37,461 bases of DNA from Crocinitomix sp. (GTDB lineage: Bacteria > Bacteroidota > Bacteroidia > Flavobacteriales_D > Crocinitomicaceae). Both the position numbers and the translations under genes were made by a program. The DNA lies in the NCBI GenBank assembly GCA_030836155.1, contig JAURQI010000172.1:1-37461 (forward strand), in the 5' to 3' direction. Shown one piece after another: positions 1,991-10,190 of the stretch; within the stretch, counting starts at the first letter, position 1, and every line of letters begins with the position of its first letter. The notes under the pieces are model-generated. The model was not told the origin of the DNA and ran no database searches. It saw only the letters and a program-made list of their open reading frames with translations.

Positions 1991-2037
1991 CGTTAATGAT
2001 ACTCATAATTATTCTTAAATCGCGCGTTAACAGTGTG

Positions 2038-2060
2038 TTATTTGCGATTTCCGCAAATAA
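2038..2060. promoter_or_regulatory. inverted repeat, possible activator-binding site upstream of the small RNAs
   Basis: Perfect 9-bp inverted repeat TTATTTGCG/CGCAAATAA with a 5-nt spacer and no T tract, so not a terminator. Its centre (2049) is about 83 bp upstream of the predicted start of the first small RNA, a usual distance for a sigma-54 enhancer site. The function is inferred. Confidence 0.4.
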
Positions 2061-2105
2061 TTAAAAATGTTAAACAATTCTTAATTTCTGAAATCCCCAA
2101 TCTTT

Positions 2106-2120
2106 TGGCACGGGAGTTTC
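2106..2120 (+). promoter_or_regulatory. sigma-54-like promoter of small RNA copy 1
   Basis: TGGCAC, five bases, TTTC. The sigma-54 consensus is TGGCACG-N4-TTGC; the -24 half is perfect and the spacing exact, but the -12 GC is TC. The same arrangement recurs at 2304-2318. No TTG/TANNTTTG housekeeping promoter is visible here. Confidence 0.5.
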
Positions 2121-2131
2121 ATTATGCTAAT

Positions 2132-2242
2132 CGAATTAGACTAAAAACCTTCTCGAAGTCTTTCTTAGGAAAGAAATAAAGAAGGAAGCAGATTCATGGG
2201 TTTTGGGTGAAGAGCTTGTTCAATTGAACAAGCTCTTTTTTT
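2132..2242 (+). ncRNA. candidate small RNA, copy 1
   Basis: Predicted RNA of about 110 nt. Start: 12 nt after the -12-like element, at the block GAATTAGAC (2133-2141). Then comes an imperfect hairpin (CCTTC near 2148 with GAAGG near 2181) with TCTTTCTT (2159-2166) at its tip, a 20-nt single-stranded linker CAGATTCATGGGTTTTGGGT (2189-2208), and a perfect 14-bp palindromic terminator (2210-2237) with seven T. Every element except the stem sequences recurs in copy 2, which is the pattern of a structured RNA. No coding frame longer than MGFG is present. Family, target and expression are unknown. Confidence 0.6.
2210..2242 (+). terminator. terminator of small RNA copy 1
   Basis: AAGAGCTTGTTCAA/TTGAACAAGCTCTT palindrome (2210-2237) followed by T at 2236-2242. 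Confidence 0.8.
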
Positions 2243-2303
2243 ATTATAAATCATTCACTTGAAATGTTAAATTTTTCTTAAATCAAACAGCTGAGCGAAC
2301 AAA

Positions 2304-2318
2304 TGGCACAGTTATTTC
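2304..2318 (+). promoter_or_regulatory. sigma-54-like promoter of small RNA copy 2
   Basis: TGGCAC-N5-TTTC, same spacing as copy 1; both are followed by ATTAT, seven variable bases and GAATTAGAC. Conservation of exactly these blocks between diverged spacers argues that they are functional. Confidence 0.5.
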
Positions 2319-2329
2319 ATTATAGATAG

Positions 2330-2427
2330 TGAATTAGACAACGTCCCTCCGCTCTTTCTTGAGCATTCGAGGGACAGATTCATGGGTTTTGGGTTAAATC
2401 GCCCGTTCGAAAGGACGGGCGATTTTT
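2330..2427 (+). ncRNA. candidate small RNA, copy 2
   Basis: Predicted RNA of about 98 nt beginning at GAATTAGAC (2331-2339). Hairpin 1 has a GTCCCTC/GAGGGAC stem (2343-2349 with 2369-2375) and an inner GCTC/GAGC closing a TTTCTT loop. Then comes the linker CAGATTCATGGGTTTTGGGT (2375-2394), identical to copy 1, and a GC-rich terminator stem closed by a GAAA tetraloop. The stem sequences differ from copy 1 while the folding pattern is kept. The RNA lies between a barrel gene and gatC, both on the other strand. Confidence 0.6.
2396..2427 (+). terminator. terminator of small RNA copy 2
   Basis: AAATCGCCCGTTC, GAAA loop, GGACGGGCGATTT (2396-2425), then T to 2427. It could also stop minus-strand transcription leaving gatC, but the T run on that side is short. 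Confidence 0.75.
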
Positions 2428-2449
2428 AGTTTAGACAATTTTTTAAAGT

Positions 2450-2740
2450 CTATTTCTTAAGAACTTTAGCTATTTTGAAATAATCGCTGTCATGATTCGG
2501 AGCGTTTTTAAGCGCCTCTTTTTGCGAAACAGTCTCTTTTGAAACATCCTCTCGAAGCACATTTATTGCCTCTGTCATGAAAATTAATGGTTCTACGCCA
2601 TCAGTGTCGACTGTGTTAAGTTGGTCAACAAAATCCAGAATATTTTCCATATCGGCCTTGATATGATCTTTCTCTTCTCCTTTAAATTCTAATCGAGCAA
2701 GGTGAGCTATGTGATCTGCGATTTCATCCGTTATTTTCAT
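2450..2740 (-). CDS. gatC: aspartyl/glutamyl-tRNA amidotransferase subunit C
   Basis: Small subunit of the GatCAB complex, which converts Glu-tRNA(Gln) and Asp-tRNA(Asn) to the amide forms in organisms lacking the matching synthetase. The 96 residues match GatC throughout: N-terminal helix IADHIAHLARLEF, the stretch ADMENILDFVDQLNTVDTDGVEPL near the middle, and a C-terminal NAPNHDSDYFKIAKVL. The ATG at 2740 overlaps the end of plsC by 17 nt, so the two are co-transcribed. gatA and gatB are not in the window. Confidence 0.92.
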   Translation of the reverse strand: MKITDEIADHIAHLARLEFKGEEKDHIKADMENILDFVDQLNTVDTDGVEPLIFMTEAINVLREDVSKETVSQKEALKNAPNHDSDYFKIAKVLKK

Positions 2741-8864: not shown

Positions 8865-10190
8865 ATGAAACTCAAAGGAATAATTGGATCAATAGTCTTG
8901 ACACTCTTTATAGGGAGTGTATCATTCGCTCAGGATTCTACATCTTCCGATTCAGATGATTGTGGAAAATACCGAAGTCTTTATTTTCAGTATTTGAAAC
9001 AAAAAATGTATCAAGATGCTGCTAATTTTTGGAATAAAGCTTGGGAATATTGTGGAAATGAAGGTTCAGATGCAAAATTCTTTACTAACGGACGATACAT
9101 CTATTCTAAATTAATGCGCGAAGATGGCGTAACTGAGGAGCAAGAAAAAGCTCTAAACGATACGCTTTACACTATTTTCGAAGCACGAATGAAGATAGAA
9201 AATGACCCAGAGTGGACAGCTGATTACGGATCTGCATTGGTTTCTAACAAATCGAAAGATTTTGCAAAAATTGATTCTTTGTTCGCAGCAAGTATCCCAG
9301 TATTAAAAAGTGATGCAAAGTCTTCGCACGTAAAAAAATACTTCCAGCACTTAATTAACAAATATAATGAAGCGCCTGCAGAGGAGAAAGAAGACGCACG
9401 AACAATCGTTATTGAAGAATATATTGTATTGTCTGAATATGTAGGAACAGCTACTAAAAAGGCGATGGAAGCTGAGGATGAAAAAGAAGTGCAGCGTCAA
9501 AAAGGTGCTCAAGCATTCTTAGACAAATACTTCTTGAAGATTGCTCAAGATTGTGCAGTATTAGAAGGTGTATTTGAGAAAAAGCTGGCTAGCTTACCAA
9601 CCGATAAGGACGCGAAGAAAAAGAAGGTTGAGAATTATCTGAATCTTTTAGATCAAAAGAATTGTCAGTCGACTGCAGTTTATGGTCAATTCGTAGACAC
9701 TTTGATTAGTGTTGACCCTACAGCTTCGGCATACTATTTTGGTGGAAGCTATGCTTTAAAGAACGATAACATTTCTAAGGCAGCAAATTATTTTGGAAAA
9801 GCGGTTGAATTAGAAGGTGAAGGTGAAAACAAAGACAAGTATTTATATAGCTTAGCAAGTACACAATACTCGCAAGGATCTTATAAATCTGCTTTTAGAA
9901 CAGCGAAACAAGTAGAAGGAGAGTATAAAGGTGATGCACTATATATCTGTGCAAATTCAATTGCTGCAACAGCAAACAGCTGTGGTACATCAACACTAGA
10001 GCGTAAAGCAAACTTCTGGTTAGCGAATGATTATATCAATCGTGCCATTGCAGCAGGTAAAGAAGGTGTGAGTAGCAGTAAATATTTGAGCAGCGCACCG
10101 ACAAGTACTGAGGCATTTGGAGAAGGTGTTTCGGCTGGAGCATCAATCAACTGCTCTTGTTGGGGAGAAAGCACAACAGCTCGATTTTAA
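8865..10190 (+). CDS. periplasmic TPR-repeat protein, function unknown
   Basis: 441 residues with a clear signal peptide (cleavage after VSFAQ, about residue 23). The rest is almost wholly alpha-helical with TPR-like pairs, for example SAYYFGGSYALKNDNISKAANYFGKAVELEG and YLYSLASTQYSQGSYKSAFRTAKQVEG near residues 290-350. It has about ten cysteines, several in the last 100 residues (CSCWG at the end), consistent with disulfides. It lies between a barrel gene and lptC, which suggests an envelope-assembly role, but I do not recognise a named family. Confidence 0.65.
   Translation: MKLKGIIGSIVLTLFIGSVSFAQDSTSSDSDDCGKYRSLYFQYLKQKMYQDAANFWNKAWEYCGNEGSDAKFFTNGRYIYSKLMREDGVTEEQEKALNDTLYTIFEARMKIENDPEWTADYGSALVSNKSKDFAKIDSLFAASIPVLKSDAKSSHVKKYFQHLINKYNEAPAEEKEDARTIVIEEYIVLSEYVGTATKKAMEAEDEKEVQRQKGAQAFLDKYFLKIAQDCAVLEGVFEKKLASLPTDKDAKKKKVENYLNLLDQKNCQSTAVYGQFVDTLISVDPTASAYYFGGSYALKNDNISKAANYFGKAVELEGEGENKDKYLYSLASTQYSQGSYKSAFRTAKQVEGEYKGDALYICANSIAATANSCGTSTLERKANFWLANDYINRAIAAGKEGVSSSKYLSSAPTSTEAFGEGVSAGASINCSCWGESTTARF

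Follow-up and report, generated by a model that had tools for sequence, protein, structure and literature searches.

Family I, a candidate lineage-specific family of small RNAs behind sigma-54-type promoters in Crocinitomicaceae, and a second RNA family that carries the same signature

Introduction

Do two tandem, similarly built modules in a Crocinitomix genome encode small RNAs (sRNAs), and, if so, how are these controlled and on what do they act? To our knowledge, Bacteroidota have few described sRNA families, and the mapping of what sigma-54 controls in this phylum has only just begun. The modules are located in the window, the 37,461-nucleotide stretch of Crocinitomix sp. DNA analyzed here, and were originally predicted, from this stretch alone, to be sibling sRNAs with sigma-54-like promoters, a common target, and possibly different stability. 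We denote the RNAs of this type family I.

Results

Two RNA modules in the window

All the blocks ascribed to both modules were found where they had been placed. The TGGCAC elements (2106-2111 and 2304-2309) are 198 bp apart and are followed in both copies by TTTCATTAT; farther downstream, both modules contain GAATTAGAC (2133-2141 and 2331-2339), an identical linker, GATTCATGGGTTTTGGGT (2191-2208 and 2377-2394), and a strong terminator. The distance between the linkers is 186 bp rather than 198 bp because the hairpin of copy 2 is shorter. Allowing up to two mismatches, GATTCATGGGTTTTGGGT occurs only at these two sites in the 3.19-Mb genome. The start of copy 1 was placed 12 nt past the C of the -12 element, where sequence conservation resumes, and is a predicted position. 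The features of the two modules are as follows.

2068..2084, + strand: upstream box of copy 1, TGTTAAACAATTCTTAA, dyad TTAA-N7-TTAA, 38 bp before TGGCAC
2105..2121, + strand: sigma-54-type promoter of copy 1, TTGGCACGGGAGTTTCA, GG-N10-TC (GG-N10-GC in relatives)
2132..2242, + strand: sRNA copy 1, predicted start ~2132, ~110 nt, fold z-score -3.5 against dinucleotide shuffles
2148..2185, + strand: optional apical hairpin insertion of copy 1, one of nine folding inserts
2189..2208, + strand: conserved linker of copy 1, CAGATTCATGGGTTTTGGGT, in which GATTC closes the 5' stem and TGGGTTTTGGGT is single-stranded
2210..2242 (approximate), + strand: intrinsic terminator of copy 1, from the fold and family comparison
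2265..2281, + strand: upstream box of copy 2, TGTTAAATTTTTCTTAA, 39 bp before TGGCAC
2304..2319, + strand: sigma-54-type promoter of copy 2, TGGCACAGTTATTTCA, GG-N10-TC
2330..2428, + strand: sRNA copy 2, predicted start ~2330, ~98 nt, fold z-score -5.2 against dinucleotide shuffles
2343..2375, + strand: optional apical hairpin insertion of copy 2, from family comparison
2375..2394, + strand: conserved linker of copy 2, identical to that of copy 1
2396..2427 (approximate), + strand: intrinsic terminator of copy 2, from the fold and family comparison

The hairpin thought to display TCTTTCTT at its tip in both modules does so as a true loop in copy 2 only; in copy 1, this sequence is mostly paired within the stem. 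It is not conserved in family I: none of the seven insert hairpins in other copies contains it. Window positions 2396-2450 hold the terminator of copy 2 and, convergent with it, the end of gatC (stop at 2450); this terminator may serve both transcripts.

Distribution and novelty of family I

A DNA search of relatives yielded the same blocks in the same layout. Run against 240 genomes of this bacterial family, a sequence-only core model (R1) matched 17 at E <= 0.001. The match in one genome (G184; E 3e-4) was weak and partial and was discarded. After its removal, along with duplicates, family I comprises 36 distinct copies in 16 of the 240 Crocinitomicaceae genomes (Flavobacteriales, Bacteroidota), with one to five copies per carrying genome. 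Named genomes with matches include Crocinitomix species, C. algicola 0182, and metagenome-assembled genomes of related Crocinitomicaceae and Flavobacteriales. The original prediction hinged on the presence of further copies in relatives; the 34 additional copies found elsewhere bear it out and exclude chance as the source of the shared layout. What had been described as a sibling pair is thus indeed two related copies, but members of a multicopy family.

Among 399 genomes drawn at the order level, no family I match was found outside Crocinitomicaceae, with the proviso that the loose pre-filter of the model search passed the 11-18 best candidates per genome to scoring, such that distant relatives could be missed. 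A viral contig collection also contained no match, and a phage origin of the family was rejected on this ground. Comparison with the 4,227 families of Rfam gave no match over the curated threshold; Bacteroides BTnc231, for example, scored 25 bits against a threshold of 80. With a terminator following each of the 36 copies, the claim of an undescribed RNA family stands.

Family I loci are self-standing units with varied neighbors. Twelve loci share, at least in part, the slot seen in the window, with the DUF6268 and FKBP genes on one side and gatC and plsC on the other; lepA, metF, and a helicase gene are among the neighbors of the remaining loci. The neighbors (gatC, DUF6268, FKBP, plsC, lepA, and metF) have no common theme and were rejected as a clue to function. 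Such lack of a theme is as expected for a trans-acting RNA.

Anatomy of the RNA

Every copy shows the same order of elements: promoter, 5' stem, linker (UGGRUUUUGGGUU, single-stranded), and terminator. Pairing is possible between the 5' end and the first part of the linker (UGAAUUA/UGAUUCA), which leaves UGGRUUUUGGGUU unpaired ahead of the terminator. This 5' stem pairs in 95% of cells, compared with 28-53% when the arms are slid. Four of its six pairs never vary, and a count of covariation in the stem found none, as the stem is nearly invariant. Nine copies carry an insert at one site in the loop of the 5' stem, and the remaining 27 have no insert hairpin. The inserts are 16-38 nt long and unrelated in sequence, and all nine fold as hairpins (Fisher combined p ~5e-16, mononucleotide shuffles; the insert boundaries were drawn by eye, which favors folding somewhat). 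A strong hairpin follows every copy, with a clear T-run in nearly all, and the sequences of its arms are unrelated between lineages. The varied inserts that fold and the terminators that differ yet persist support the RNA nature of the element. Accordingly, the earlier statement that the stems differ while keeping the fold holds for the inserts, but not for the 5' closing stem, which is invariant in sequence rather than covarying. Because the hairpin is an optional apical insertion, it says little about the suggested difference in stability between the two RNAs.

These features bear on two other readings of the locus. A dispersed DNA repeat, that is, a mobile element or recombination site devoid of RNA function, could account for a multicopy, sometimes tandem element confined to one bacterial family. 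It would not be expected to keep the order promoter-linker-terminator in every copy while the inserts and terminators change in sequence and retain their fold; moreover, many loci recur as orthologs in different species, we saw no terminal repeats, and the viral contigs contain no match, all of which makes this reading very improbable. The chance that the element is a leader, an attenuator, or a small-peptide gene is comparably slight. A potential MGFG-coding sequence, ATGGGTTTTGGG, is present in some copies, but the ATG is lost in the copies with ATAGG and GTGG, the frame beyond the ATG differs, and the terminator follows the element, with the downstream gene often convergent. Across family I, where insert lengths vary and some copies have no ATG, no conserved reading frame is kept. 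The family has the marks of an independent sRNA, namely, its own promoter and terminator, no conserved open reading frame, and conservation beyond a single genome. We consider family I to be almost certainly an sRNA family, and the sequence comparisons support its description as a putative lineage-specific, multicopy group of previously undescribed short regulatory RNAs.

Promoter, upstream box, and candidate activator

The -24 element is present in all 36 copies, as TGGCAC in 34 and TGGCAT in two. Ten bases past its GG, the -12 element reads GC in 16 copies, TC in 11, GT in six, CC in two, and AC in one. The promoter of the relatives has the form TGGCACG-N4-TCGCA and is otherwise a textbook sigma-54 promoter; the -24/-12 pattern thus fits the family, and the fit is imperfect for the two window copies, which have TC. 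The promoters in the window had been recognized as sigma-54-like despite this TC, and family comparison explains it as one state of a position that varies within the otherwise textbook promoter of relatives. Conserved sequence restarts at TGAATTAGAC, 26 or 27 nt after the first T of TGGCAC, where a sigma-54 polymerase would start (the predicted +1).

The competing possibility is a housekeeping or extracytoplasmic function (ECF) promoter, with TGGCAC being a site for some other factor. It could draw on the TC of 11 of the 36 copies, the two in the window included, and on a loose TAnnT-like stretch ahead of the +1 in some copies. We regard it as improbable, given GG-N10-GC or GG-N10-GT in 22 copies with the same spacing as in those with TC, the position of the predicted +1 exactly where the conserved transcript region begins, and the absence from most family I copies of the TAnnTTTG box that is present at several loci of another RNA family found in these genomes (see below). 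Judging by these promoter sequences, control of family I by sigma-54 is highly probable.

A box, TGTTAAATAnTTCTTAA, precedes TGGCAC by 38 bp in 24 of the 36 copies, by 39 bp in one, and by 49 bp in one; about ten copies have no such box. Of 21 near-exact matches to the box across nine Crocinitomix-genus genomes, 18 are located upstream of family I RNAs. Every tandem copy has a box of its own, and therefore the box belongs to the sRNA rather than to a neighboring gene. One perfect box (L080:1501-1518; G003:C12:122999) lacks an sRNA at the spacing seen elsewhere; ~200 bp downstream is a degenerate TGGCAC site.

As the original prediction anticipated, the genome encodes RpoN and sigma-54 activators. 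Two proteins contain a strong sigma-54 activator domain: one has a receiver-AAA architecture with no recognized DNA-binding domain and is followed by a NadC-like gene (L228), and the other combines AAA with a Fis-type helix-turn-helix (HTH) domain and is encoded directly upstream of lptE (L229:1090-2875, G000:C4). The lptE-linked protein is the only one of the genome's activators with a recognized DNA-binding domain. Its neighborhood matches that reported for Flavobacterium psychrophilum, in which a probable sigma-54 activator gene also adjoins lptE (PMC9723704). In that bacterium, sigma-54 promoters drive groESL, dnaK, grpE, htpG, clpB, lon, and skp, with chaperone and envelope-stress genes among their outputs, as well as genes for gliding; a single putative regulatory RNA, Rfp36, also lies behind such a promoter (PMC9723704). 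The perfect form TTGGCAYR-N4-TTKCW occurs at only four sites in the genome of the window, one of them being window copy 1; another, TTGGCATATCTCTTGCA (L124; G000:C106:10067-10083), is located shortly before a gene that we call TonB-like from its sequence as seen, without a domain search.

Family II, RNAs of another build bearing the family I signature

The signature of the family I linker, UUCAURRGUUUUGGGUUA (18 letters), recurs in the same genomes in RNAs of a different build, denoted family II. Neither family II nor the upstream box of family I figured in the original prediction. These are 65-100-nt hairpins that end in T-runs and display UUACUUUUUCAUAAGUUUUGGGUUAAUGAA in the loop; several loci lie behind promoters of the TAnnTTTG, or housekeeping, type. 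Across 28 family II copies, a core of ~28 nt with the signature hardly varies, while the outer stems differ but remain complementary. The stems were judged copy by copy, a procedure that favors finding them; a MAFFT alignment misaligned the variable outer stems and gave an almost empty consensus fold. The genome of the window contains three tandem long-hairpin RNAs of this kind (contig C18, ~9380-9850; L282:1375-1860), with UUCAUARGUUUUGGGUUW in the loops, a T-rich end on each, and TACCTTTG, a housekeeping-type box, in front. Among the matches listed, the exact signature UUCAURRGUUUUGGGUUA was confined to genomes containing family I as well; across 395 genomes drawn from the phylum, it occurs in the genome of the window and once elsewhere.

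Some family II loci at first resemble perfect antisense targets: the complement AACCCAAAAYCCA has three orthologous intergenic matches. The opposite strand of these loci encodes hairpins with T-runs, and they were rejected as targets because they are family II members bearing the signature in the same sense. Two families that differ in build and promoter type and share one signature suggest a single common partner. Whether they form a two-arm circuit within one bacterial family, with a sigma-54-inducible family I and a constitutive family II converging through the shared signature, we judge to be an evenly balanced question.

What the linker may act on

Pairing with mRNA is the commonest use of a segment of this kind. 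Three linker positions vary between A and G in family I, an exchange that would keep pairing to pyrimidines (A-U or G.U). We searched for complements by pattern and by sequence stretches; once the RNAs themselves were removed, linker complements were not enriched in the genomes. With up to two mismatches, AACCCAAAAYYYATGAA has ~101 matches outside the RNAs, compared with ~85 for the reversed control, and the near-perfect matches fall mostly on start codons. For 162 start regions, the preference over shuffled seeds was weak (z about -2), and internal ATGAA sites pair better, so that start regions are not preferred over them; on this basis no target gains support, and start-codon pairing was set aside. 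The common target ascribed to the siblings did not emerge clearly from the complement searches and stays a proposal.

A few isolated candidate sites were recorded. In the single-contig genome G012, an exact 17-nt complement of the signature, outside the RNAs, spans the start codon of a gene for a 145-aa protein beside an hsdM-like gene (L273; G012:C1:3536185-3536201). Orthologous proteins of ~100 aa without a Pfam match (L313, G000:C54:12406; L336, G002:C121:12330) start with CCAAAACUUAUGAA, a near-complement to the family II signature. Further candidates are the genes of two secreted proteins, one in G002 and one in G004, that are probably homologous (L333 and L373; homology judged by eye).

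The chances that the linker acts on mRNA as a seed appear a shade better than even. Because complements are not enriched and the preference for start regions is weak, protein binding is kept as the main, serious rival: the linker would be a protein-binding site, and the RNAs would be decoys that titrate one RNA-binding regulator in the manner of CsrB or RsmZ. The near-invariance around the signature in family II, against changing flanking stems, fits this reading, as do the display of the signature both in family I linkers and in family II loops, sometimes by three RNAs in tandem, and the lack of enriched complements. The A/G variation in the linker speaks for pairing to pyrimidines instead, and a family I RNA contains a single signature rather than many. 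Overall, titration of a protein seems rather unlikely, and seed pairing is the reading that we carry forward.

Discussion

A model of family I function

The explanation as a whole, a sigma-54-activated, lineage-specific, multicopy, trans-acting sRNA with the linker as its working part, appears reasonably probable. RpoN polymerase would transcribe family I once an enhancer-binding protein is active, most likely the one encoded next to lptE, the sole activator with a DNA-binding domain. The RNA would begin at (U)GAAUUAGAC and form the 5' stem-loop UGAAUUA/UGAUUCA, the loop of which tolerates extra hairpins; this 5' hairpin would protect the RNA end. The linker would be the working part, in the simplest case by seed pairing with shared mRNA targets, and several copies would raise dosage. 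Family II, from housekeeping-type promoters, would act on the same partner, providing a basal arm beside the inducible one. The least secure step in this scheme is the signal: we suggest only tentatively that protein-folding or envelope stress induces the window RNAs.

The anatomy of family I is unusually clear, and its companion, family II, is unexpected. Family I provides a compact multicopy sRNA with a predicted start, a candidate activator site, and a proposed working segment, and Crocinitomix has a sequenced isolate (Crocinitomix algicola, with one copy of family I), so that the regulator, signal, and partner are directly testable. The signature common to family II, with its other promoter type, points to a shared partner and offers a handle for finding it.

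Comparison with known systems

The Qrr RNAs of Vibrio are paralogous sRNAs that are driven by sigma-54, exist as several copies, and share a conserved core; they differ from family I in sequence and phylum. In the CsrB/CsrC and RsmX/Y/Z systems, different decoy RNAs have one short motif in common. There, each RNA has multiple protein-binding motifs, whereas a family I RNA has a single signature and no array of GGA loops.

Compared by description, Pxr of myxobacteria resembles family I in its sigma-54-type promoter, restriction to a lineage, and tandem paralogs with differing stem-loops, but is single-copy in most species and linked to the gene of a sigma-54 response regulator (PMC5568312). Rfp36 of F. 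psychrophilum, also compared by description, is similarly a putative flavobacterial regulatory RNA behind a sigma-54 promoter (PMC9723704); it comes from outside the range of family I, which the order-level draw placed in Crocinitomicaceae only.

FopS and GibS of Bacteroides thetaiotaomicron share with family I the combination of multiple copies in Bacteroidota and a short, single-stranded, conserved seed ahead of an intrinsic terminator (PMC11697453). They differ in that FopS RNAs have sigma-ABfr promoters and target the start regions of susC mRNAs (PMC11697453), whereas family I has sigma-54-type promoters instead and a target that is only putative. For the FopS model, deposited in Rfam according to its authors' statement (PMC11697453), the comparison with Rfam gave no match at the gathering score. 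In B. thetaiotaomicron, the seed (R1) is common to differently regulated RNAs, GibS and 14 FopS (PMC11697453). FopS RNAs are the nearest working analogue of family I.
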